Shown in pieces: positions 403 to 18,517 of a DNA stretch of 28,024 nucleotides (position 1 is the stretch's first letter; every line of letters starts with the position of its first letter). Position numbers and translations under genes: made by a program. This DNA comes from a virus. The notes below the pieces were generated by a model that had not been told where the DNA came from, did not search any database, and saw only the letters and a program-made list of their open reading frames with translations. The stretch is from the IMG/VR virus record IMGVR_UViG_3300035145_002755, positions 1-28,024 of that record; one strand, 5' to 3'.

Positions 403-543
403 ATGAAAAAACGCCCGTATTGGAATTTCTGGAAAGTTGTATTAGCAGGGTGGTTAATTAGGTATCCAAAAACAATGTCCAAGGTGGTGTTAATACCCCT
501 TGGATTTTTTATTGTTCTGGTATATAATGCCCTTACAAATTGA
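403..543 (+). CDS. Small single-pass membrane protein, 46 aa
   Basis: ATG at 403 to TGA at 541-543 gives 46 residues. A basic, aromatic N-terminus (MKKRPYWNFWK) is followed by a short hydrophobic stretch and then, after YPKTMSK, a clear membrane-spanning segment at about residues 28-41 (VVLIPLGFFIVLVY). The positive-inside rule would place the N-terminus and the RYPKTMSK loop in the cytoplasm. I recall comparable short membrane proteins in cyanomyoviruses, without a known role; host membrane modification or lysis timing are only guesses. The Shine-Dalgarno is poor (CCGGA directly before the ATG). It is the first gene behind the sigma70-type promoter and the structured leader, so it is probably expressed early and perhaps under translational control. 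The 29-base gap to the next gene suggests co-transcription. Confidence 0.65.
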   Translation: MKKRPYWNFWKVVLAGWLIRYPKTMSKVVLIPLGFFIVLVYNALTN

Positions 544-572
544 ATAACTAGAAAAAAATTCCCGGAGGTAAA

Positions 573-797
573 ATGAAACCCACAAAGGTTTATCACATAT
601 ACACAAAGGATGAGTGTATATACAATAATTTAAGTGAAGAAGAATTCACTGAGAAGTGGACAGAACTGAGTGCAATGGTAGGATTATTACATACTGATTT
701 TTCGCCCACTGATCTTTCTTATGAGGAGTGTACTAGACACTGGGGAGGATACTGTGCGGATAACACGACAGAACCTGCTGGTGATGATTCGTATTGA
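573..797 (+). CDS. Acidic conserved phage protein, 74 aa, function unknown
   Basis: ATG at 573 has a strong ribosome-binding site (GGAGGT at 564-569, with short 3-base spacing). The 74-residue product is strongly acidic, with a core rich in Tyr/Cys/Trp: HIYTKDECIYNNLSEEEF, then a helix-like EKWTELSAMVGLL, and an acidic, Thr-rich end. It has three cysteines (C15, about C53 and about C61), which might bind metal or form disulfides, although spacing gives no recognised zinc motif. The C-terminus, GDDSY, resembles that of a small protein family I remember from cyanomyoviruses. No function is known to me. The stop codon lies inside the -35 box of the next promoter, so the end of this gene and the start of the glycosyltransferase transcription unit overlap. 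It probably shares the transcript of the membrane protein upstream. Confidence 0.75.
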   Translation: MKPTKVYHIYTKDECIYNNLSEEEFTEKWTELSAMVGLLHTDFSPTDLSYEECTRHWGGYCADNTTEPAGDDSY

Positions 798-822
798 CAC
801 CCTACATAAACACTGTTAGAAT
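794..822 (+). promoter_or_regulatory. Sigma70-type promoter with extended -10, before the glycosyltransferase
   Basis: TTGACA (794-799, perfect) is followed by a 17-base spacer and TAGAAT (817-822, five of six), with TG one base before the -10 (814-815). The expected start is near 829, only about 15 nt before the ATG at 844, so the messenger would have a very short leader and no clear Shine-Dalgarno. The -35 box overlaps the stop codon of the upstream gene. This is an early, host-polymerase type of promoter. Confidence 0.75.
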
Positions 823-843
823 TGGATTGAGTTACTTAAACTT

Positions 844-1626
844 ATGGCAAAAGGATTTACAGTTAAAGCAAACACTCCGAGTACAAAGAAAGTAAAAAAG
901 GAGGAGTGGGATATTGCTGCTATTAAAGAACGAATGAAAGGTAAGACAATTGTATTTTGTCTACCTGGACGAGGAGTATCATATATCTTTCTGAAGAACT
1001 TTGTTCAACTTTGTTTTGATATGGTACAGAATGGTATGGCCATTCAGATCAGTCAAGATTATTCATCAATGGTAAACTTTGCACGTTGTAAGGTTCTTGG
1101 TGCGAATGTATTGCGTGGACCTGATCAGATTCCTTGGGATGGTAAATTGCAGTATGATTATCAACTGTGGATTGATAGTGACATTGTATTTGACACTAAC
1201 AAGTTCTGGCAGTTATGTGATCTTGCACTCTCAGAAGATGGCACAGAACGTGAAATCACTGCTGGGTGGTATGCCACTGAAGATGGACACACAACTTCTG
1301 TCGCACACTGGTTAGAAGAGGATGATTTCCGTAAGAATGGTGGAGTGATGAATCACGAAACAGTCGAATCTATCCAGAAGCGTAAGAAGCCATTTACTGT
1401 TGACTACACTGGTTTCGGATGGGTGATGATCAAGAAGGGTGTGTTTGAAGATGAGAAGATGAAGTATCCTTGGTTTGCTCCTAAGATGCAAGTCTTTGAA
1501 TCTGGAAGCGTTCAGGACATGTGTGGTGAGGATGTCTCATTCTGTCTTGATGCTATTGAAGCTGGTTATGATATTTGGTGTGATCCCCGGATCCGCGTTG
1601 GGCACGAAAAAACTCGCGTAATCTGA
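844..1626 (+). CDS. Glycosyltransferase-like protein (GT-A fold), 260 aa
   Basis: The 260-residue product has the layout of a GT-A type glycosyltransferase. A short polar N-terminus leads into a beta-strand/loop KTIVFCLPGRGVSY near residue 35. A D-S-D motif lies at residues 111-113 (within LWIDSDIVF), the usual metal and nucleotide-sugar site. An acidic GED at about 228-230 and a late histidine (H254, in VGHEK) follow, as in family 2-like and Anp1-like enzymes, where these act in catalysis and metal binding. No signal peptide or membrane segment is visible, so it should act in the host cytoplasm. Sugar donor and acceptor cannot be read from the sequence. Related enzymes occur in many cyanomyoviruses near baseplate genes, as I remember, and might glycosylate a virion or host component. 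It is driven by its own sigma70-type promoter and followed by three tightly packed genes. Confidence 0.75.
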   Translation: MAKGFTVKANTPSTKKVKKEEWDIAAIKERMKGKTIVFCLPGRGVSYIFLKNFVQLCFDMVQNGMAIQISQDYSSMVNFARCKVLGANVLRGPDQIPWDGKLQYDYQLWIDSDIVFDTNKFWQLCDLALSEDGTEREITAGWYATEDGHTTSVAHWLEEDDFRKNGGVMNHETVESIQKRKKPFTVDYTGFGWVMIKKGVFEDEKMKYPWFAPKMQVFESGSVQDMCGEDVSFCLDAIEAGYDIWCDPRIRVGHEKTRVI

Positions 1627-1628
1627 AC

Positions 1629-1784
1629 GTGACTCGTTTCAACTTATATTATGATAATAAATTGATTCGTAGCGACCTCTCGTTTGAAGATGCAACAGAG
1701 GTCCTACAAGACTTCTCCGAAGAATTTTTCTCAGGTGAAGGAACTATTAATCCAAACAAAATTGAACTTAGGGAGAACAATTAA
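1629..1784 (+). CDS. Small acidic protein with GTG start, 51 aa
   Basis: A GTG at 1629, two bases after the stop of the glycosyltransferase gene, opens a 51-residue frame ending in TAA at 1782-1784. The product begins VTRFNLYYDNKLIRSD and continues with an acidic helix-like stretch (FEDATEVLQDFSEEFF), ending IELRENN. I recall closely similar short proteins beginning MTRFNLYYDN in cyanophages, which supports the GTG start; there is no ATG in this frame. No Shine-Dalgarno is evident, so translation probably couples to the upstream gene. Function is unknown. The next gene starts two bases after its stop, and that gene's ribosome-binding site (AGGGAG near 1770) lies inside this one. Confidence 0.7.
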   Translation: MTRFNLYYDNKLIRSDLSFEDATEVLQDFSEEFFSGEGTINPNKIELRENN

Positions 1785-1786
1785 TT

Positions 1787-1933
1787 ATGGCACGCGCTAA
1801 AGTTGGTTTGACTGGCGACAAGATGATTGAAGCCACACCGAAAAAGACTCGTCAGGGTCAAGGTAAGCACACCAAGTATGCTGCTACATCACGTAATGGT
1901 AAGAAGAAAGTCTATCGTGGCCAAGGTCGCTAA
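1787..1933 (+). CDS. Small, very basic protein, 48 aa, possible nucleic-acid binder
   Basis: ATG at 1787 to TAA at 1931-1933 gives 48 residues: MARAKVGLTGDKMIEATPKK at the start and SRNGKKKVYRGQGR at the end. It has nine lysines and five arginines against two acidic residues, a net charge of about +12. The GRNGKKK-like, glycine/arginine-rich end resembles the disordered tails of ribosomal and other RNA-binding proteins. I remember near-identical small proteins in many marine T4-like phages, so it is likely a real conserved gene, but no role is known to me. The ribosome-binding site AGGGAG lies about 11 bases upstream. The gene sits between a 51-aa protein and the oxygenase; its last 17 bases overlap the most likely oxygenase start. 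A longer frame starting at 1827 reads through this gene out of frame and is not real there. Confidence 0.75.
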   Translation: MARAKVGLTGDKMIEATPKKTRQGQGKHTKYAATSRNGKKKVYRGQGR

Positions 1934-2483
1934 TTTATTTGCATCTCCTCTTCATATTGAGGAGATGCTTTTTGATGTGAATAGTATTCGTGAAGAATGC
2001 TATCAGAGACAAAATAATAATCCTGGTAGAGAACTTTCTAATATGGGTGGTTATCAATCAGGAGATTACTTTCTTCCTGATTTATTTTTTAATGATCTAT
2101 TCTTAAAGATTGAAGAGGCAGGTAATGCTTTTGCAGATTTAATTGGTATTCGTCCAGTTAAAATAGATAACTTTTGGATTAATATCAATCGTAAAGGTCA
2201 TTACAATCAAAAACATGATCATCCTAACTGTCAATTGTCTGGAGCATATTATGTGAAAGTGCCACCAAACTCTGGTTTGATTAAATTCATTCATCCATGT
2301 GATAGATTTATTACAAGAGATTGGAATGTCAAAGAATTTACACCATACAATTCAGAAGTATGGGGATTTGAACCAAAAGAGAATGATCTTTATATCTTTC
2401 CTTCTTGGCTTGAACATTCGGTAACTCCAAGTTCAAGTGATGAAGATCGTATTTCAATCTCATTTAATTTGATGAGTAAATAG
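1917..2483 (+). CDS. 2-oxoglutarate/Fe(II)-dependent oxygenase-like protein, about 188 aa
   Basis: The fold and motifs match the putative 2OG-Fe(II) oxygenases of the TIGR02466 / 2OG-FeII_Oxy_5 group. An N-terminal LFASPLH corresponds to the family's LF-x-x-P signature. The first iron ligands are in KHDHPN (H100, D101, H102), followed by SGAYYVKVP, the distal histidine H167 (in LEHSV), and RISISFN, where R178 and S180 would bind 2-oxoglutarate. These enzymes hydroxylate an unknown substrate using Fe(II), O2 and 2-oxoglutarate. I chose the GTG at 1917 because it keeps the LF-x-x-P signature close to the N-terminus and has AAGAAG upstream. The start overlaps the 48-aa gene by 17 bases. Alternatives are ATG at 1896, or ATG at 1965, which would lose the signature. 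Everything upstream of about 1896 in this frame is an out-of-frame reading of the 48-aa gene. Confidence 0.72.
   Translation: MAKVANLFASPLHIEEMLFDVNSIREECYQRQNNNPGRELSNMGGYQSGDYFLPDLFFNDLFLKIEEAGNAFADLIGIRPVKIDNFWININRKGHYNQKHDHPNCQLSGAYYVKVPPNSGLIKFIHPCDRFITRDWNVKEFTPYNSEVWGFEPKENDLYIFPSWLEHSVTPSSSDEDRISISFNLMSK
2476..2482 (+). promoter_or_regulatory. Possible weak late-promoter box GTAAATA
   Basis: GTAAATA overlaps the stop codon of the oxygenase gene and lies 22 bases before the next ATG, the same arrangement as the clearer CTAAATA boxes later in the window. The first base differs from them, so this is only a weak candidate. Confidence 0.25.
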
Positions 2484-2485
2484 TT

Positions 2486-2501
2486 GTAACGACTTTGTTA
2501 C
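2486..2501 (+). repeat. Small inverted repeat just before a start codon
   Basis: GTAAC (2486-2490) and GTTAC (2497-2501) are perfect inverted copies around a six-base loop, three bases before the ATG at 2505. It occupies the position where a Shine-Dalgarno would be, and none is present. A five-base arm can arise by chance. Confidence 0.3.
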
Positions 2502-2504
2502 TTT

Positions 2505-3182
2505 ATGGCTACATTAATTTGTAACTTACCCTCTATTGAAGTATGGGTAAGAAAAGAATATCTGACTGACCACCAATCTGGTCATGGTGAATTTGTAAAG
2601 GGCGTTTGGGTGTCGTGTAAGTCGATACCTGGACGTACTTTTTATTTTGAGACATACTTACCAGAGTATGCTGCAATGTATGATAAACTGCCTATCAGTG
2701 CCTTTGTAAGCGAGCCTGAGACGCCTTCACCTGATATGAACCTACCTAACCTACAATTCTGGAATTGTATGGACTATGGTGTGGTCTCTGTAACTAAACA
2801 ATTCATTGGTTCAATGGATTATGAGTTATATACTAGGGACCATGGGATTCAAAAAGGTACTTATATCTGTACAATAGATAATTATCATCAGGATCCTGAT
2901 ACAATTGACTATGCAACAAGTGAAAATCCTGCCGAACACAAGTCTCATAACCTAATTGAGCTTGATAATGGACAGTATGCACTCTATCCAAACAATAGAA
3001 TGCGTATTTTTGACAATAGTTTGACACCTGTTGAACCAAAAATGCCTGATTTTAAGGTATCAACGCAATATTACAGTGTTGAGAATGGTTTTGATCGACT
3101 TGGAATGGGTCGTGAAGACGAATATTTTTGGAAAACTGCTAAAGAACGCGAAAATCAACCTAAGGAGAACGAAGATGAATGA
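2505..3182 (+). CDS. Conserved phage protein, 225 aa, function unknown
   Basis: The 225-residue product begins MATLICNLPSIEVWVRKEYL and is rich in aromatic residues and beta-strand-like stretches (VWVSCKSIPGRTFYFETYLPEY). A middle segment carries an acidic, Tyr-rich DNYHQDPDTIDYATSE, and the end is charged (ERENQPKENEDE). I recall similar proteins in the same position, shortly before gp25, in marine T4-like cyanophages, where they remain unnamed. The ATG at 2505 fits that family start although it has no Shine-Dalgarno. No signal peptide, membrane segment or catalytic motif is visible. A baseplate-assembly role is suggested only by its place. The gene overlaps the next by eight bases (ATG inside its last codons), which points to coupled translation. 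Confidence 0.75.
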   Translation: MATLICNLPSIEVWVRKEYLTDHQSGHGEFVKGVWVSCKSIPGRTFYFETYLPEYAAMYDKLPISAFVSEPETPSPDMNLPNLQFWNCMDYGVVSVTKQFIGSMDYELYTRDHGIQKGTYICTIDNYHQDPDTIDYATSENPAEHKSHNLIELDNGQYALYPNNRMRIFDNSLTPVEPKMPDFKVSTQYYSVENGFDRLGMGREDEYFWKTAKERENQPKENEDE

Positions 3183-3354
3183 CTTTCTAGACAATTTAGC
3201 TAATGATCAGCATCAAAAGATGCTTCGTGAGATTGCAGAAGACGATCTGACACCCAAAAAGAAGGATAAAAAGGACGAGCAAGAACTCTGGGAGCGAATT
3301 GATACTGGAGGTGCCTCACCAGGAGTATGGGAAAGAGGTATCATTAGTGAGTGA
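3175..3354 (+). CDS. Small charged protein, 59 aa, function unknown
   Basis: The start is the ATG at 3175, preceded by a strong AAGGAG about ten bases upstream and overlapping the last eight bases of the previous gene. A longer in-frame start at 3031 lies inside that gene and is a shadow. The 59-residue product is highly charged: MNDFLDNLANDQHQKMLREI, an acidic/basic middle with KKKDKKDEQE, then a Trp- and Gly-containing end, WERIDTGGASPGVWERG. It may be largely helical and disordered. I do not know its function. It is the last gene before the late promoter of gp25, so it closes the accessory block. Confidence 0.7.
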   Translation: MNDFLDNLANDQHQKMLREIAEDDLTPKKKDKKDEQELWERIDTGGASPGVWERGIISE

Positions 3355-3359
3355 TACCC

Positions 3360-3368
3360 CTATAAATA
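3360..3368 (+). promoter_or_regulatory. T4-type late promoter (CTATAAATA) before gp25
   Basis: CTATAAATA at 3360-3368 contains the full T4 late-promoter octamer TATAAATA, which in T4 is recognised by the gp55 sigma factor with gp33 and gp45. It lies about 30 bases before the gp25 start, directly after the stop of the upstream gene, and opens the structural block. The sequence after it (AAGAAAGAAC) resembles that after the boxes at 7271 and 18538. Confidence 0.8.
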
Positions 3369-3799: not shown

Positions 3800-5731
3800 A
3801 TGGCACTAGTAAATTTCGCAAATCTGGATTTCAACCAGATAAAATCCACTCTTAGAGAATATCTTAGAAATAATTCCAATTTTACGGATTATGACTTTGA
3901 AGGATCTAATCTGTCAACGGTTCTGGACGTTTTAGCATATAATACTTACATTGCATCGTACAATGCCAACATGGCATCGAACGAATGCTTCATTGATAGT
4001 GCTACATTAAGAGAAAATGTAGTAGCACTTGCAAGAAATATTGGATATACCCCTAGATCAAGAACAGCTTCTGCAGCAGTAGTTAGTTTTTTCGTTGATA
4101 CTGACGGAATTACACCTGCACCAACATCAATTACGTTGAATAAAGGTCCAGTTGCGACTTCAAACGGTGCTTTTGGTGGAGAATCGTATGTTTTCTCATT
4201 ACTTGATGATGTAACAGTCCCAGTTGTCAATGGAATTGCATCATTTGACCTCTTAACCATCTATGAAGGGACATATTTAACTGAAACTTACACATATTCA
4301 TCAAGAAATCCCAATCAAAGGTTCTTACTCAACAATGTTGGAGCAGATTCCAACACAATTCGTGTAAGAGTAGGTACAAATAGCTCTACTGCTAAGCAAA
4401 CTTACACATTACAGGACAATTTATTTGATATTGACGGAGATTCAAGAGTTTACTTTTTACAGGAAGTAGAAGATGAGAGATATGAACTGATTTTTGGTGA
4501 TGGAATCTTTGGAAAAGCACTAAGTGAAGGAAATCAGGTAGAAATCAACTATTTGACCACTAGTGGTGGGTCATCAAACGGAGTTGATAACTTTGCATTC
4601 AACGGAAGAATGACTTATGTGAGAAATGGTGTTACTTATACTATTTCTCAAGGCGTTTCTCTCCTCACTACTGATATTGCTTCTGATGGTGGTGATGTTA
4701 TTGAAAAAGTTGACTCAATTAAGAAGTTTGCACCTAGAATCTATGCTTCTCAAAACAGAGCACTGACAGCAAATGACTATGAAACACTAATTCCAGCAAA
4801 AATCTATCCAGAAACTGAATCTATTTCTGTTTTTGGTGGAGAAGAGTTGATTCCTCCTCAATATGGAAAAGTATTCATTAGTATCAAGCCAAGAACTGGT
4901 GAATTTCTCCCAAATCTCATCAAAGAGAATATTAAGAGAGATTTGAAAAAATATGCTGTTGCTGGAATCGTTCCTGAAATCCTTGATTTGAAATATTTGT
5001 ATCTTGAGGTTACATCTAACATCTATTACAATACAAATCAAGCTCCATCATCATCAGAAGTCGCTACAATTGTTCAAAGCAACGTTGAGTCATATGCCGA
5101 CTCAAGTGAACTGAATAAGTATGGTGCTAGATTTAAATATAGTAAATTTTTAAAAATTATTGATGATAGTCACGAAGCGATTACTTCCAACATTACCTCT
5201 GTAGCAATGCGGAGAGACGTTAGGGCTGCCCTCAACACACTCGCAGAGTATCAGATAGGGTTTGGTAATCAATTCCATATTGCAAGGATGAGTGGGTACA
5301 ATATCCGATCAAGTGGATTCAGAGTTGCTGGTGTTACTCAGAATGTTTACATCGGAGACATTCCAAATACCAATAGACAGAACGGTTCATTGTTCTTATT
5401 CACTCTTGATAATCCAGCATCAAGAAACCCAACAATCGTTAGAAGAAACGTTGGTAGAATTGACTACATTAAGGGAATTATCACATTAAATCCAATCAAC
5501 ATTCAATCAACTCAAAAAGTGATTGATGGTCAGTCTGTGATTCAAGTGGTTGCTACACCACAATCAAATGATGTAATCGGACTACAAGATTTGTATTTGC
5601 AACTTGATGTAAATAGCAGCGTCTTTGAAGTTATCACTGATAGCATCGCTTCTGGAATTGATCCATCTGCATCAACTTATACAGTCTCTTCAAGCTACAA
5701 TTATAACAGAGGTTTACTGGTAAAACCATAA
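3800..5731 (+). CDS. 6: Baseplate wedge subunit gp6 (baseplate J-like)
   Basis: The 643-residue protein is close to T4 gp6 (660 aa). Its N-terminus (NFANLDFNQIKSTLREYL, then DFEGSNLSTVLDVLAYNTY and an ASNECFIDSATLRENVVALA helix) is the typical gp6 / baseplate J start. The middle carries the FGDGIFGKAL and ANDYETLIPAKIYPE segments seen across this family. gp6 forms the iris-like ring that ties the wedges around the hub and changes shape on infection; it works with gp25 and gp53. The C-terminal 200 residues or so are beta-rich. The gene starts directly on the gp25 stop and ends one base before the next ATG, so 25, 6 and the following gene form one tight unit. Confidence 0.92.
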   Translation: MALVNFANLDFNQIKSTLREYLRNNSNFTDYDFEGSNLSTVLDVLAYNTYIASYNANMASNECFIDSATLRENVVALARNIGYTPRSRTASAAVVSFFVDTDGITPAPTSITLNKGPVATSNGAFGGESYVFSLLDDVTVPVVNGIASFDLLTIYEGTYLTETYTYSSRNPNQRFLLNNVGADSNTIRVRVGTNSSTAKQTYTLQDNLFDIDGDSRVYFLQEVEDERYELIFGDGIFGKALSEGNQVEINYLTTSGGSSNGVDNFAFNGRMTYVRNGVTYTISQGVSLLTTDIASDGGDVIEKVDSIKKFAPRIYASQNRALTANDYETLIPAKIYPETESISVFGGEELIPPQYGKVFISIKPRTGEFLPNLIKENIKRDLKKYAVAGIVPEILDLKYLYLEVTSNIYYNTNQAPSSSEVATIVQSNVESYADSSELNKYGARFKYSKFLKIIDDSHEAITSNITSVAMRRDVRAALNTLAEYQIGFGNQFHIARMSGYNIRSSGFRVAGVTQNVYIGDIPNTNRQNGSLFLFTLDNPASRNPTIVRRNVGRIDYIKGIITLNPINIQSTQKVIDGQSVIQVVATPQSNDVIGLQDLYLQLDVNSSVFEVITDSIASGIDPSASTYTVSSSYNYNRGLLVKP

Positions 5732-5732
5732 A

Positions 5733-7274
5733 ATGACACAAACTAGAGTTCCATTTAAGTATATTGTAAAAAATCAACTTCCCGACTACGTTCGGGATGA
5801 ATTCCCTTTGTTGGGAGAGTTTTTATCGCAGTATTACCTTGCTCAAGAATTTCAGGGAGCTCCTCTTGATTTACTTCAGAACATTGATCGTTATATCAAA
5901 TTAAATAATAATGCGAATGTAATAAAATCAACTTTTCTGCGATCAGATATTACTGCAACTGATACTACAATACTTGTTAATAACACAAATGGTTATCCTG
6001 ACGAATATGGTCTAATTAAAATTGATAATGAGATAATTACATATACTGAAAAAAACGATTTTAGTTTTATTGGATGTATTCGTGGATTTCAGGCTCATGC
6101 CAAAGATCCTAAGAATGAAACTTTTGTTTTTTCAGATTCCGAATCAGCATCACATAAAGCAGAAGCAACGGTAGAAAATTTAAGTGTAGATTTTCTGTCA
6201 AGATTTTTTAAAAAGGTAAAACATCAGTTTTTACCTGGACTTGAAGATAAAACATTATCCGACAAAATCAATAAAAATCTTTTTGTAAAACAGGCAAAAG
6301 ATTTTTATACATCAAAAGGCACTGACCAATCATTTAAGATTCTTTTTAAGGCATTATATGGAGAGGACGTTGAGGTTTTAAAACCTTCAGAGAATCTATT
6401 CACTCCATCACAATCTTTGTATAAAATTACAAAGGATATGATTGTTGAGCCAATATCTGGCAATGTCATGGACATTGAAGGTTATACAATGTATCAAAAT
6501 GAATTTGGTGATTTAATTAATAAAGCATATGCTCCAATTACGGATGTAGAGAGAGTTATTGTTGGTGGAGCATCTACAGATTATTATCGTTTAAGTTTTG
6601 ATGCAAATTATTCTAGAGATCTTCAATTTGACGGCGCAGAATATGGTGAGTTTGTTGCTCATCCAAAAACAAAGTTGATAGGAGATTATACAATATCATC
6701 AAAAACATTTGATGTTGATTCAACAGTTGGATTTCCAAAATCTGGTGAATTAATAGTCACTTATGATGATAGAACAACTGGAATTGTATCATATACTTCA
6801 AAATCATTAACTCAGTTTTATGGTATCACTGATATAAGTAATACCATTTCAGATAATTCAACTGTTGGTATCAATACTTTTGCTACGGTTACTCTTCAGG
6901 ATGAAACTGTGGTTTCTATGAGAATCGTAAATGTTTTAACTGATTATCACGTTGGTGAACAAGTTGGTTGGGTTAAAGGCAAACCATATTATGGTCCATA
7001 CCATATTCACAAAGGTAGAAAGATGGTTGGTGCTAAGCATGTCTCAACTCCTCACGATTATATCTACGATACCAAGGAAGCAAGTCTGCTTGATTATGGA
7101 ATAGATACTGCAGCGGTAGCTATTTCAGATTATTCAACTTCGTCAAGTATTTCTGCATCAACAAATGTGGTGTCTAGTACGTCTTCAAGCGCCTCTTCTG
7201 GTGGAGGCGGAGGATCCACACCTTCAACGCCTACTGGTGGTGGCGGCGGTGGAGGCGGTGGATATGGTTACTAA
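5733..7274 (+). CDS. Virion structural protein, 513 aa, with His-cluster and Gly-rich tail; N-terminal part of a usually giant protein
   Basis: The first 400 residues or so match my memory of the N-terminus of the giant structural protein that follows gp6 in cyanomyoviruses: VPFKYIVKNQLPDYVRDEFP, FLSQYY, a YPDEYGLIKIDNEIITY module, a TSKGTDQSFKILFKALYGEDV helix, and VDSTVGFPKSGEL. In those phages, as I recall, the chain continues into what is here the next gene. Here it runs instead into a tail with P418-Y-Y-G-P-Y-H-I-H426, M431VGAKH436 and STPH441, then a Ser-rich stretch and a Gly-rich end with runs of five and nine glycines, finishing YGY. The four histidines could bind metal. It lies in the slot of T4 gene 7, suggesting a baseplate wedge or peripheral role. 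The stop codon overlaps a late promoter. The structural role is fairly sure, the exact role is not. Confidence 0.78.
   Translation: MTQTRVPFKYIVKNQLPDYVRDEFPLLGEFLSQYYLAQEFQGAPLDLLQNIDRYIKLNNNANVIKSTFLRSDITATDTTILVNNTNGYPDEYGLIKIDNEIITYTEKNDFSFIGCIRGFQAHAKDPKNETFVFSDSESASHKAEATVENLSVDFLSRFFKKVKHQFLPGLEDKTLSDKINKNLFVKQAKDFYTSKGTDQSFKILFKALYGEDVEVLKPSENLFTPSQSLYKITKDMIVEPISGNVMDIEGYTMYQNEFGDLINKAYAPITDVERVIVGGASTDYYRLSFDANYSRDLQFDGAEYGEFVAHPKTKLIGDYTISSKTFDVDSTVGFPKSGELIVTYDDRTTGIVSYTSKSLTQFYGITDISNTISDNSTVGINTFATVTLQDETVVSMRIVNVLTDYHVGEQVGWVKGKPYYGPYHIHKGRKMVGAKHVSTPHDYIYDTKEASLLDYGIDTAAVAISDYSTSSSISASTNVVSSTSSSASSGGGGGSTPSTPTGGGGGGGGGYGY
7200..7263 (+). repeat. Direct repeat encoding the glycine-rich tail
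   Basis: A 16-base unit GGTGGAGGCGG-x-GGAT occurs at 7200-7215 and 7248-7263 with one mismatch, inside the last codons of the 513-aa gene. Both copies encode glycine runs. The GC-rich unit stands out from the AT-rich surroundings and could expand or shrink by slippage, changing tail length. Confidence 0.6.
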
Positions 7275-7277
7275 ATA
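7271..7277 (+). promoter_or_regulatory. Late-promoter box CTAAATA overlapping a stop codon
   Basis: CTAAATA, followed by AGTAAAAAA, overlaps the TAA stop of the 513-aa gene and lies 24 bases before the start of the giant gene. The 15 bases at 7272-7286 are identical to 18541-18555 before the gp8-like gene. CTAAATA is the usual late-promoter form in marine T4-like cyanophages. AAGG six bases before the ATG at 7301 serves as ribosome-binding site. Confidence 0.7.
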
Positions 7278-7300
7278 AGTAAAAAAGTCTCAAGGCAGAT

Positions 7301-10300
7301 ATGTCGAAGCAGTTGAATAATCGATACTACGAGAAGGGCGATACCATCCGAGTAAAGACTCTTGGATTGGCGGCTAATGACGCTGTTTCAAATAACTGGA
7401 TTTTAAATTCTGCCACCACTTATAAGGTAGAAAAACTTGAGAAAATTAATGTACAAAATTTCAGATATAAATTAACTCTTGACAATAACCACATTTTTAG
7501 AATTGGCGATACTTTAACTGTAACAGGAAATAATTTTAAGGCGTCATCTAAAGTATATTCTGTAAATAGTGCTACTCAAATAACAATAGGCGATCAGGGA
7601 AATTTAGATAATGTTTCCGTAGATTCTATTAAAGTAAGAAAAAATATTTTAAAGGGAAGAGCAACAAATTATGATATTTCCGCAGTTGCTACAAATGTTC
7701 AAAATATTTACAAAAAGGGAACTAGCACATTAGTCGCGTCTTCTTCATTACCATATTTTGGGAATACGAATCTAGAATCTGCTAATACTAAGATTACTTT
7801 TAGTGGAACTTTTCCACCAACTGGAAGTGCTGCCACAGACACTTTCAAAATTTTATCAACAGGCGACCATGGATTATATACAGGCGATGTAATCTATTAT
7901 TCGCCACAAAAAACTACATCAACATCAACAGATATTGATGGCAATACGATTACCACAACAACGACCCAAACAGGTATTGCTGAAGAAGGAATTTATTTTG
8001 TAAGGAGACTTACTGATACTACAACTATAAAATTAGCTAAAAGTAGATCTCAACTTTTCAATGAAACTTATATTACAACAGAACCCATCAGTGTAACTGA
8101 TAATACTATTGAACTTTATTCATATAAAGATAAAACATTAGAAAACCAAAAACTTTTCAGGGAAATACCTGGACAAAATAACAACTTAAATCAAACTGAA
8201 ACAGATCCTGGAACCAAAAATGGTATCTTGGTGAATGGAGTGGAGATTTTAAACTATAAATCTCTTGATGGAATCAATTACGGTAGAATAGAATCTGTAG
8301 TTGTAGATAATTCTGGAAGTGGATATGACGTAATCACCCCACCAAATGTCGTAATATCAGATACTACTGGAGTTGGAGCTACTGCAAATGTTGCGGTAGT
8401 TGGTTCTTTTAATAGAATTGATTTACTCGATACTGGATTTGATTATGTTAAAGATCCTGTTGTCACAATTACAGGAGGAAATGGTCAAGGTGCGACTGCT
8501 ATAGTTAATACTTCTTTGGTTGAACATAATGTAGATTTTAATTCTGCTGAAGTTGATGGACTAGTTACAATTGGTTCAACCTCGGCTATTGGGTTTTCCA
8601 CTTACCACAAGTTTAGAGATCATGAGAGAGTTATTTACAAGTCAAACGACCAGAGTGGAATCGTTGGATTGACCACAGGTGCATTCTATTACGTCTCTGT
8701 TCAAACTAATACGAATGTAAAACTCCATAAAACAATGGAGGATTCTATTGCTGGTGTTAATACAGTAACATTTACTGATTATGGATCTGGCAGACATACC
8801 TTGCAAGCCACAGACCTTAAGAAAATTGTTTCTTCAATAGAAGTTGCAGCACCAGGAACTGGTTATCAAAATAGAAAAACAACTGCCGTAGGTGTATCAA
8901 CTTCACTTAATGAGATTCAAATTCCATCTCATGGATATTCATCTGGAGAAAAAATCAAATATCTACCAGATTCAAGTGCCATTGGTGGATTAGTTGATGG
9001 AACAGAGTATTATGTAACCACTGTTGACGAAAATCACATCAAATTATCGTCAGTAGGCCCAACTTCTGATGAGGAACTGTATTACAGAACAAATCAATAT
9101 GTAAATCTGACTTCTCCACAAACACAGATTGATGGATTCCTTTCAGAAAATCAAGGAAAGCACCATTTTAATTATCCAGAAATCGTTGTTTCTGTGGTTG
9201 GTGAAATTGGAATTTCTTCTATTGGAGCGGAGACGTTTGAAGCCAGAGTATCTCCAGTAGTAAGAGGAAGAATTGATTCAATAAATCTCCAAACCAAAGG
9301 AGTTGGTTATGGTTCTTCCGAAGTCATTAATCTTGTCAGAGACCCTGAAATTTCTTTGCAGGTTGGTTCTGATGTTCAATTGACTCCCATAGTTGCTAAT
9401 GGAAAAGTTATTCAAGTAATTGTAAACAACGGTGGAAAAAATATTAATGCCACTCCAGAATTAAATGTTATCTCAGACAGTGGCCAAGGTTGCGTATTAA
9501 CTCCTGCCATTTCTGGAGGGCAGATAACTTCAGTAACGGTTATTGGTGGAGGTTTTGGATATCTTGCCGAGGATACCACTATTGAAATTGTATATCCTGG
9601 AACTGGTGCTAAATTTAGATCAACTCTTCAGAGATGGACGATAAATGAATACCAAAAAAATATATCAAAAGTTACTTCTGATGATGTTTTCATTGATAAT
9701 GGTTTGAATCTGGATTTTGGACTGCAAGCAGTTCATTTATATGCACCAAGACTTTTAAGACAAGAGTTATATCAAAATAGGCAAGATGGGACAGTAACGT
9801 ATAATTCTCCAGACCTTGTTCTTGATAATGGTGTAGAAAAATTAACTTCAAAAAATCACTCTCCAATTATTGGGTGGGCTTATGATGGAAATCCAATTTA
9901 CGGACCATTTGGATATTTGAAAAAGAATGGTGGTGTAGTAACTCAGATGAGATCTGGTTACAAACTATCATTGAAATCAAATAGACCACCGACTTCTATA
10001 TTTGCAGAAGGATTCTTTGTAGAAGATTTTGAGCATATTGAAAGTTCTAGTGATGATGTTCTAGATGAAAATAATGGAAGATTCTGCATCACCCCAGAAT
10101 TTCCAAAAGGAACTTATGCATATTTCTCAACGTTGTCAGAAACTGCAGAATCTCAAGGTGCATTCAAAAACTATAAAGTTCCACAATTCCCATATTTGAT
10201 TGGAAAATCATTATATTCTAAACCATCAAATTTAAGTTATTTGAAATCATCCAATCATGATGAATATGATGTTCAAGGAAATGGTTGGGTAAGAAATACT

Positions 10301-13300
10301 AGTTTCTATAATCTTGAGGAGGATGATTCATCATATTCTTATGTTGAAAGGCCGTTTAAGTTAACAAATACACAATTATCAAAAGTCACATATGCTTCAC
10401 CAGGTACAGTTGGTAATATTGGCATTTTAACTGGAGGAACTAACTATAAGATTGATGATTCTCTGATTATTGATGATACTGACACTCAAGGATTCAATGC
10501 AGATATTAGAGTGTCAAGAATTGGTGGAAAACAGGTATCCTCTATAAGTTGTGCGACTACATCAATATCATCAATTGAAGTTATTCCATCAGGAAAAACT
10601 GGAGAGTATACTTTCTTTACTGATTCGCCTCATGAACTGTTAAACCAAGAGTTGGTCTCTATTGCTGGTCTGAGCACCACTGCGGTCAAACTTCATGGAC
10701 AATATAAAGTTGGTGTTACTACTTCAACTTTAGTTTTGAGAGCTGGGGTTGGGACTACTGGAGCTACAGGAATAACAACTTACTTTGACATCTATGGTTT
10801 TGGAATTGACAATATCATAGAAAATGATATCTTCAAGATTGGTGATGAAAAGGTCAAAGTTCTGAATGTTGACAAAGTATCATCTAGAATTAGAGTTTTG
10901 AGAGAAGTTCTTGGAACTTCTGGTGCAGCACACACTGCTACAACAATCTTCTATGAAGAACCAAGAAGGTTTACTGCAAATGTCGGATTCAATACAACGT
11001 TTGACTTTGTAATCAATAAGGAACTGTATTTTGAACCACAGAATACCTTAGCACTTGGTATGAGTGCTGGAGTTGGCATTGGAACCACTATTACCTTCGT
11101 CAACCCTGGATCTGGTGCAACCAACGTCTTCCTGCCAACACAGACGCTATACCTGCCAAGCCACGGTCTTAAAACTGGCGATGAGCTAATCTACAAACTC
11201 AACAGTCAAGATGAGGCTATTGGAGTTTCTACTGCTGGTGTATCAACTTTTGCTCTTGCTGACCAACAGAAATTATTTGTTGCCAAAATTGGCGAAGATC
11301 AGATTGGTGTTTCTACAGTTAGAGTTGGTCTCAACTCTACAGGCACATTTGCTGGAATTGGTTCAACTAACGCACATCAAGGACTTCTGTTCTTCACTGG
11401 ATATGGTCAAGGTTCAAACCACAGTTTTGTAACCAATTATCCTAATGTAGTCTCTGTATCTGCATTCAAGAATACCGTTACTGTATCTACAGCATCAACT
11501 CATGGTCTCACAGTATTAGATACCGTATACGTTGATGTAAGACCATCAACAACTCAATCTTTTGCTGTTTCATATGATGATTATAATCAAAGAATCATCA
11601 TTAATAAAAAAGATGTTGATGCATCTGATATAAACGTAACTTCAAATGAAATTACTATTGGAGACCATGGATATAAGTTAGGTCAATCTCTGATTTATAC
11701 TGCATCCAGCCCAGCGGGTGGATTAGTTAATAATAAAATCTATTATACAGTAATTGTTGATAAGGATACAATTAAGTTATCAGAATCTTATTTTGATTCA
11801 ATAAGTTCTGTTCCAACGATTGTTGATATTACTAGCGCAACTGACTCTTCATTCTCACCAATTAATCCAGAAATAAAGGTCTATAAAGAGTCTACTATTG
11901 AATTTGATCTTTCCGATTCAAGTTTAACGTATACTAGAAACTCTGTATCATATCCAGCTTTCAAGTTTGTATTATTTACTGACAATAATTTTGATACAGA
12001 ATTCCATAAGACATCAGATAATGAAGATTTTGAAGTGTTGACCACAGGTACAGTTGGTGTAGATGGAAAAGTAACTCTTACTTTAAACAACAATATTCCC
12101 AAGACTTTATATTATAAGTTAGTTCCAGTATCTAACGATCTACTTCCAAATGAGAAAAGTAATGTTGTTTGTGACCCAGAAGTAATTGGATATAATCAAA
12201 TCTCGATTTTAGACAGTGTATATTCTGGAAAGCAAAGCATTTCTATCGCATCTTCTACATCATTCAGATATCTATTACAAAAAGTTCCAGAAAAAACATC
12301 ATATACATCAAGTGATGCAATTATTGAATATTCTACAGACTCTGCTACTGGTATTGGATCCATCGTTCAATTAAAGACGTTCAATAAAGGATCTAATTAC
12401 TATAAGTTACCTTCTGTAAGAGGTGTTACTAGTGGACTGGGTTCTGGTGCGGTCTTTGAAGTAACTAGCACAGATATTGGTGCAATTAAAAGGACTAAAC
12501 TTAGAAGTATTGGATTTGATTATCCATATGATAAGACTTTAAAACCAACTGCTAAACTTCCTGAAATAGTCAAAATTGATAATTTAGCTATTCTTGATTC
12601 TGTTGGGGTAACATCTTTTGGATATGGATATGGTTCTATTGAACCTAAGATCTTGTTATTTGATGGCCAAACTGGAGAACAAAAAACAGAAGCAGATCTT
12701 AGGTTTGAATTTGGAACAAACCAACTGCAAATTGTTAAAAATACTTTTGGTGTTAACAACGTTCAACCAACACTCTTGCCAACTAAAAATAGTAATGGCA
12801 TGGGAATCGGTTCAATGTCATATGATTCTGGAACGAAGACCGTTACAGTTACTTTAGCATCGGGTATTACAACTGTTGGAGCCTTCCCATTTGCAATTGG
12901 GGATGAGGTTATGGTTGAAAATGTCAGCGTTGGCATCGCATCAACCAATCCTCAAGGTGTAGTTGAAATTGTAGATACAGGAAAAGGTTACAATACCGAG
13001 AACTACAACTACAAACTATTTGTACTTACCTCTGTTGACGAAAATATTGGAGGAATTGGCACAGTAGCATTCAGTCTTGATGGATATATTCCTACGGGAG
13101 AAACCCCTGGAACATTTAACAGTTTAAGATCTGCGGGAAGAATTATTCCTAAGAAACATTTCCCAGTATTTGATGTTTCTCTGACAACAACAGATTTTAT
13201 TGAAGATGAAGATATTATTTCTCTGGATGATGAAAAGGCTACGGGAGTTATTGAAAGTTGGGATAGTAGAAATGGAAATCTAAAAATTAGATCTAACAGA

Positions 13301-16300
13301 GACTTCACCAAGGGTCATATTGTTGAGGGACAGTCCTCTGGAACCAGAGGAACCATTTCTTCAATCATCTCTTCAGATTCCGAATATGATATTGACTCTC
13401 AATCAAGAGTTGAATCTGGATGGGAAGATGTTACTGGTTTCTTGAATGATACTAGACAGGTTGTTCAGGATGGTGATTACTATCAGAAGTTCTCATATTC
13501 TCTCAAGTCCAAAGTTCCCCTTGACACTTGGGATGAAACTGTTGGCGCTCTCAATCATACCTCAGGATTTAAGAAATTCTCCGATCTTGTAATTGAGACA
13601 TCACCAATTCAATCTGCGGTTGTTGGATTAGGAACAACAACATCTCATTTTGATAATACAATTGATTTCATACAGAATGTTGACATGAATTGTGTTTACA
13701 ATTTTGATCTTGTCAAAGAGAATAATAAATCCACCTTCTCAGACAAAATTATTGCTTCAAATAGAATCCTCACTGATTATGAAGAATCTGTAGGAAATAG
13801 AGTTTTGAATGTTGATAATGTTGCAAGTCAATTTAATAGTAATCCTAGACCAACCAAGTTTAGTGAAGTTGCTCGCTGGCCTATCGCAGACGCATGTGGT
13901 CATAAGTTTGTAACTTATATCCAAGACCCAGATGTAACTGCTGAATCGCAAATTCAAATGGTTACGGTTCTCCATGATAAACAGGGTTCTGGATTTATTA
14001 ACCAATATGCGATTACATCAACTGAAATTGAGTTGGGTTCTTTTGACTATACTCTTGATGGAACTGATGGAGTTCTTCAGTTCTACCCCAATAAGTTTAA
14101 GATTAATCCTTATAATATCTTCAATTTAACATATAATATCGGTGCTGCAGTAACAAACACCGACACACAAACTCTTGGTGGTGCAGTAAAGATTACCTCT
14201 AGCAGTCAGAATGTATCTGCTGGAACAACAACAAATATTGTTAGTATTGCCAACACATATACTGCAGCAAAAGTTCTTGTTTTGACCAAAACTGTTGATG
14301 ATCAGTTTGAATATGATGAACTTAATCTGATTAGTGATGGAACAACTGTAGATGTAGTTGAATATGGTGAACTGTCATCTATTAATCAAGAGGCTTGGTC
14401 TGGTGGATATAGTGGACTTGGAACATACAATGCATACATTGATGGAAGCAATATCAAAGTTGATTTTGCTCCAAATGTATCAGTTGCATCTTCTGTCAAT
14501 ACTATCATAGTTGGACTTTCAAGTGCAGGAACTGGTATTGGTTCAGAGGGACTGGTTCACGCAGAGGTTGGTGCTTTACCAACATCAATTGCATCTAGTG
14601 GATCGCCAACTGAAAATGCAATTGCAGAATACAATAATTCTACTTACAACGCTGCGTATTGTATTGTCCAAGTGTCTGATCCAGACAATGATCATCATAT
14701 GATGACTGAGTTGTTGGTAATTGATAAACCAGATTTTAACGAGACCTTCATTTCGGAGTTTGGCACAATTGTTAGCGATACTGCTCCAGCAGCTGGTCTT
14801 GGAACTTTCGGTGCAGCAGTGGTCGGTGACGTTGTAAGAATTACGTTTACTCCTAACGAAAATATTAATACTGAAATCAAGACCTACTACAATTACATGA
14901 AGCATGATGATGATGGGTCTACTCCAACTAAGATTGATCTTACAAGTTCTTATATTGATACTCAATTTGGAACATATGCAGGAACTGATGTTGATGTTAA
15001 GAGAGCATTTAACATCCTATATGGTGGTTATCAGGTGTTTGAAAGATATATTGATGCTAGTGATGAAGATGTAGTTGGATCTAATACCAGTCTTGATGTT
15101 CAGAATGCTATTACAATACCAAATCACTTCTTTGTTACTGGTGAACAACTAACTTACAGTACTCCAGGTGCTGGAACAACTGAAAATATTGGTATTGGAG
15201 CAACAACTATTTCTGGTGTTTCTACTGACAAACTTCCAGGAACTGTCTTCGCTATTAAAATTGATTCTAATAAGATCAGACTTACTGATACTGCAGAGAA
15301 AGCCTTGGCAGCAGTTCCAAATGATTATTTTGATATTGTATCGGTTGGAATTGGAACTTCTCATACATTTACCGCAAATAACCAAAACACCAAGTGTTTG
15401 ATTGCTATTGACAACTATATCCAGTCTCCTGTAGTTGCAACTGCATTAACAACTTCTTTGAGTGATCAATTGTTTGCAAGTCAAGGAAGTATGTTCCTTT
15501 CTGGAATTGGATCTATTTCTGGTGGAGAACTTCTTCAGATTGGCGAAGAAATCGTTAAAGTTCAATCAGTCGGTGTTGGTTCTACAAACCAAGTAAGAGT
15601 TAGAAGAGGATGGCTTGGAACAAGAAGGGCTGGATATGGCACTGGTGCTCTCGTAACCAAAGTTCAAGGTAATTATAATATTACAAACAACACTCTAAAC
15701 TTTGTTGAAGCACCATATGGCAATATTCCACTTTCAACTACTACTGCTTCACCTGAGGAAAGAGACTGGACTGGTATTTCAACTAGTTCCACTTTCCAAG
15801 GAAGAGTATTCTTGAGATCTGGTACTCCGGGTTCTTCAGTTAGAACATATGGCAGAAACTATCTCTTTGATGATATTTCTGACCAATTTGATGGTTCTAC
15901 AGATACATTTACATTGAAGTCCGAAAAATCTAATACCACTGGATATGAAGATGATAATGCGATACTTCTCATTAATGATATTATTCAGGTTCCTGGTCTA
16001 ACTCAGAACTTTACTCTTGCAGAACAAGCAGGTATTACTTCTGCGGTCTTTGTCAATGATGGGCAGACAATTACTTATGATGTAAATTCTTCCAATCTCC
16101 CTATCGGTGGAGTAATCATCTCAGTTGGTTCTTCCGAAGGATTTGGTTATCAACCACTGGTTTCTGCAGGTGGTACAGCAACAGTTTCTGCTGCTGGAAC
16201 TATCTCTGCCATCACGATTGGTAGCACAGGTTCTGGATATAGAGCCGTTGAAACTTATGATGTTCTTACCAGTGTTGCAACAACCGTTGCTGTTGGAGCA

Positions 16301-18510: not shown

Positions 18511-18517
18511 CTAAATA
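18511..18517 (+). promoter_or_regulatory. Late-promoter box CTAAATA after the giant gene
   Basis: CTAAATA, two bases after the stop codon of the giant gene and 47 bases before the gp8-like ATG. It is one of two late-type boxes in this short gap. Confidence 0.55.

Follow-up and report, generated by a model that had tools for sequence, protein, structure and literature searches.

The window analysed here, 28,024 nucleotides of DNA (a 28-kb fragment) from a marine T4-like virus related to the cyanomyoviruses, raises the question of whether a large baseplate gene has been divided in two and, if so, by what means. Pfam and PHROG matches indicate that the usual gene order gp25-gp6-gp7-gp8 is kept, and the place of gp7 is occupied by two open reading frames, one of 513 aa (gp7N, 5733-7274) and one of 3735 aa (gp7C, 7301-18508); all features described here lie on the plus strand. 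Upstream, a match to the T4-type late promoter motif TATAAATA (3361-3368) precedes gp25 and is likely the promoter of gp25-gp6-gp7N. The baseplate wedge protein gp6 (643 aa, 3800-5731; PHROG 219, Pfam Gp6) directly precedes gp7N. Within gp7C, residues 846-948 (9836-10144) form a YHYH domain (PF14240, E 3e-24), and a CTAAATA late promoter motif (18511-18517) lies before gp8 (18565). The first-pass annotation of this DNA had read the locus as a gene fission accompanied by the gain of a promoter.

A megablast search of the joint between the two genes against isolate phages returned nothing, and protein searches were therefore used. The two proteins match PHROG 2885 consecutively, gp7N at positions 6-409 (E 1e-137) and gp7C at positions 407-3362 (E 0). 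In tblastn comparisons, gp7N residues 1-404 and gp7C residues 10-600 adjoin inside the single annotated gp7 of S-SM2, Bellamy, SynMITS9220M01, P-TIM68, B23 and S-B05, with a gap of about 9 aa between the two matches in S-SM2. Both proteins thus align with consecutive segments of the one long protein that follows gp6. The core common to all fused gp7, as delimited by sequence comparison and an AF2 model, comprises gp7N residues 1-404 (5733-6944), which agrees with the earlier placement of its end near residue 405. The start of the 3735-aa protein had been quoted less exactly: YYEKGDT is present, but about eight residues stand ahead of it, and the protein begins with MSKQLNNRYYEKGDT.

The fused ancestral form, which the first-pass annotation had proposed, was found in the isolates examined, the broken frame of S-SKS1 aside. 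A single long gp7 is also present in more distant isolates, including P-SSM2 (15.6 kb), ACG-2014f (12.7 kb) and S-CAM4 (10.5 kb), and the gp7 of S-SSM4 (20.8 kb) and of P-TIM40 (22.1 kb) is likewise one gene. In the Kyanoviridae (S-SM2, Bellamy, P-SSM2), gp7, the baseplate wedge initiator of PHROG 2885, likewise lies between gp6 and gp8 but is one gene, whereas the window has two, parted by a C-terminal module, a tail, a stop codon, a promoter and a start codon. T4 gp7 (PDB 5iv5, 5hx2) is also a single chain, of 1032 aa; its segment 725-758 aligns with the gp7N core at profile positions 189-222, but beyond this short segment it bears no recognisable sequence likeness to gp7N, and the Pfam wedge match fell below the family cut-off. 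By profile and gene order the locus belongs to PHROG 2885, but the single chain of that family is here replaced by two genes, a state confined to the split clade described below. The window has gp7 in two parts and no standard gp7.

In S-SKS1 (L033, 4974-7103 and 7037-11101), the reading frame of gp7 is interrupted some 710 aa in and resumes in an overlapping one. This is the only exception among the isolates examined, it lies elsewhere than the split joint, and the record is unannotated there; it reflects either a sequencing error or a real frameshift.

A set of 181 distinct gp7 N-terminal sequences was assembled from three IMG/VR protein scans with gp7N, a module scan and isolate records. 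It contained 24 split genes, 144 fused genes and 13 genes cut off by contig ends, a ratio of 24:144 that should not be read as a natural frequency, since split loci are favoured by both the first gp7N scan and the module scan. The prospect that nearly all relatives carry two genes at this place was not borne out. In a tree of the core that included every split sequence (24) and 64 fused ones, the split genes formed one clade (SH-aLRT 100) nested among fused groups, all deep branches were fused, and the nearest relative of the clade, L125 (60% identity), was fused as well. The joint reads VRISSVLSNIEYDQPNYYYEKDDTIEIKSLG in L125 and VSMRIVNVLTDY...stop...MSKQLNNRYYEKGDTIRVKTLG in the window. As the split genes constitute one clade with a fused nearest relative, the sequence comparison leads us to conclude that the gp7 split arose by one fission of an ancestral single gene, a single derived event that supports the original reading of a fission with a gained promoter. 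Fusion of genes is common in tail proteins, and the two-gene state might accordingly be ancestral, with the split primitive and many later fusions; however, one change suffices on the tree, the split group is nested while the deep branches are fused, and the distant isolates are fused too, which makes this history very improbable. The split loci came from more than 20 metagenomes and showed the same stop codon and joint in 24 of 24 cases at 65-95% protein identity, indicating that the stop codon is genuine and no product of assembly. No account of the split was found in the literature searched on cyanophage gp7, late promoters, gene fission and YHYH, a search with most subscription papers outside its reach.

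The joint itself is compact. The TAA stop codon of gp7N (7272-7274) lies within a CTAAATA late promoter motif (7271-7277), confirming what had been noticed at first, and the next ATG, at 7301, is preceded by a Shine-Dalgarno-like AAGG (7292-7295) 5 nt ahead of it. With the two genes only 26 nt apart in the window, a programmed frameshift, readthrough or bypass might yield a full-length chain across the joint. Against this, the spacer measures 23, 25, 26 or 30 nt among the loci measured and the frame relation changes within the clade, so that a conserved frameshift is ruled out; moreover, the RNA structure at the joint is unremarkable (z -0.64), and gp7C has a conserved ATG with its own leader resembling a ribosome site. 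Production of a continuous chain is thus highly unlikely.

CTAAATA has been reported as the late promoter core of the T4-like phage Aeh1, beginning at -12 (PMC1524935), which would place the predicted transcript start at the joint near 7283. The motif is not more abundant than chance in the window (4 copies against 6.05 expected), and its placement is informative. Of the 44 coding-strand copies in the split-clade contigs, 37 fall within a zone comprising 1.45% of positions, namely non-coding DNA situated 10-60 nt ahead of an ATG, although these contigs are homologous and the 37 placements are therefore not independent events. This placement exceeds that of all 105 letter permutations of the motif in the same contigs, whose other strand carries 5 copies. 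Across marine contigs, the extended string ACTAAATAAGTAAAAA is found mostly 25-32 nt before structural genes. At the joint, CTAAATA with the stop codon inside it is present in all 24 split loci, and around the corresponding position of the fused loci it was found in none of 144. The joint motif agrees with T4-type late promoters (TATAAATA, or CTAAATA in Aeh1; PMC1524935) in sequence, in strand and in its spacing from the start codon, sharing with them a coding-strand motif at a conserved distance before late genes; unlike theirs, it overlaps with the preceding gene's stop codon, and the joint promoter is a prediction from the motif. Judged by its placement and conservation, the motif is a well-supported candidate late promoter, as had originally been proposed.

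Structure models bear on where the cut falls. The AF2 model of gp7N shows a confident beta domain at residues 230-403 (pLDDT about 90), which a break at 404-407 separates from a small folded module reaching to about residue 455; the end is disordered (pLDDT < 50 at 457-513). In the model of the fused L125 gp7, two predicted domains flank a low-confidence stretch at residues 403-436. The pTM is low for both models (0.38 and 0.36, respectively), and the domain arrangement is unreadable from either; nevertheless, the break in gp7N and the low-confidence stretch in L125 together indicate that the cut falls in a probable interdomain linker. A Foldseek search with the model of gp7N found no convincing match to gp7.

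Beyond the core, gp7N carries a His-rich C-terminal module (residues 407-452, 6951-7088), followed by a low-complexity Ser/Thr/Gly tail that ends in GGGGYGY and is predicted to be disordered (7089-7271). The His- and Gly-rich sequence noted at the outset is therefore present, but it is not new, since the module is common to gp5 and gp6. Residues 407-452 match the C-terminal module of the gp5 hub/lysozyme of S-SSM7, S-SCSM1 and P-TIM68, with the shared pattern G[WY]VxGxPYYGxxHxH..GxKMVGxxH....H..I at about 61-67% identity, and the gp5 of two of these three phages also has a low-complexity tail after the module. In these phages the module ends the central hub protein, whereas in the window it ends a wedge protein. 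Among marine viral contigs, the module was located near the C-terminus of 32 distinct gp5, 5 gp6 and 16 gp7N sequences, and the gp7N tail carries the conserved motif G.PYYG..H.H..(G)(R)KMVG..H near its C-terminus, as do the gp5 and gp6 modules. All 24 split genes have the module, and none of the 144 fused genes has it at the joint; as the 24 split loci represent one evolutionary event, this association amounts to one coincidence of gain rather than 24.

Within the split clade, dN/dS was 0.14 for the module, 0.15 for the core and 0.52 for the low-complexity end, from which we conclude that the module is under purifying selection with the same constraint as the core. A decaying gene, or an error of assembly or sequencing, is contradicted by this value for the module, by the intactness of both reading frames and by the fact that 24 loci, drawn from more than 20 metagenomes, all share this joint, and is the least credible explanation of all. 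In effect, the variable spacer and frame dispose of a frameshift, dN/dS of a pseudogene and recurrence of an assembly error.

Searched alone, the tail gave no significant family in Pfam or PHROGs, and the module gave no match in the PDB by sequence. In hhalign, the module aligned to YHYH (PF14240) with a probability of 68% over 34 columns, a match resting on GWxxxGxPxYGP. The YHYH domain is predicted to bind zinc and to be a tail-associated metal-dependent hydrolase (PMC7824862). The conserved HxH...H...H pattern of the module suggests metal binding. The first-pass idea that the first half of gp7 might form a tip of its own gains some plausibility from the fact that gp5, the hub/spike protein, terminates in this module as well. 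Its other idea, that the gained promoter may let the two parts be made in unequal quantities, is a possible consequence of the split.

The module also occurs in other settings. In another lineage (L105, L112-L119 in part, L077), the full module with a Gly-YGY end is found at the C-terminus of gp6, with gp7 continuing after it. Near the end of the gp5-locus protein in L121 (S-SM2_017) and L122 (Bellamy_17), the framework of the module is kept and all histidines are lost. Many fused relatives carry a low-complexity C-terminal tail on gp6, and comparison of the tails showed that the gp6 of the window does not. Relocation of the tail from gp6 was considered and rejected, as the nearest fused relatives (L125, L139 and L158) have no gp6 tail.

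A source in gp5 is suggested by the DNA itself. Eight gp5 genes with the module end in TAC-TAA-ATA, which gives the same overlap of stop codon and CTAAATA as in gp7N, and gp5 3' ends with TACTAAATA share collinear DNA similarity with the module and gene end of the window. By blastn, the gp5 3' end of L087 was 68% identical to the window in the module and 87% over 53 nt at the end, and the gp5 of L083 was 79% identical over 121 nt of the module; these matches are short, and part of the likeness follows necessarily from shared amino acids, Gly codons, the stop codon and the motif; moreover, the gp5 genes compared are those of other contigs, the split-clade contigs stopping short of the gp5 locus. 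We favour the inference that a gp5-like 3' end was transplanted into gp7. Because gp5 3' ends show the same stop/promoter arrangement, the joint promoter probably came together with the tail; it could have had another source, given that many structural genes are preceded by ACTAAATAAGTAAAAA as a stock late promoter.

The latter consideration bears on a stepwise origin, in which the linker acquired the module first and the stop codon, promoter and start codon evolved locally later. A late promoter that is a stock sequence before many genes would be compatible with such a course, as would L178 and L197, where a gp5-type His module (residues 566-599 and 588-622, respectively) lies inside an unbroken gp7 chain, so that the module can evidently be accepted in mid-chain too. 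These in-chain modules sit between NVQNVY and a VSSSSLP-like stretch, elsewhere than the split joint. However, no fused gp7 with the module at the split joint was found among 144, and gp5 3' ends already show the arrangement from module to stop and promoter; a stepwise origin is thus unlikely, though less so than the other alternatives weighed above.

The explanation we prefer, with a probability of roughly 0.78, is that a single gp7 was cut once, in a flexible linker, by a gp5-type 3'-end cassette, with both parts working as separate genes. The cut would have fallen between the wedge-core domain and the giant distal part of the ancestral gp7. The cassette would have comprised the His-rich module, the low-complexity Gly-YGY tail and the stop codon inside CTAAATA, with an AAGG-bearing leader and a new ATG after it. 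Translation of the gp25-gp6-gp7N message would then yield the wedge core, capped by the module, and the distal 3735 residues would be made separately, with a late promoter and a ribosome site to themselves. Both halves presumably join the same baseplate, and the module may act as a cap or tip; the transfer from gp5 to gp7 and the activity of the promoter are likewise putative steps. A broader proposal, which we advance tentatively and regard as doubtful, is that in marine T4-like phages a portable cassette forming a gene end (a His-rich cap, a Gly tail and a stop codon over a late promoter) moves among gp5, gp6 and gp7, and that its landing in mid-gene made a new structural gene in one step, the cap being shifted from the spike at the centre to the six wedges.

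Our analyses thus describe a polarised case, confined to one branch with a known fused sister, in which a large baseplate gene was split into two working genes, and the likely physical means of the split was the borrowing of another gene's end, promoter included. A short conserved module is found on three baseplate proteins, without a Pfam or PDB match in these data. These observations suggest that cyanophage gp7 can function with its wedge core on one chain and its giant distal part on another, and that a virus can turn part of an existing gene into a new structural gene.
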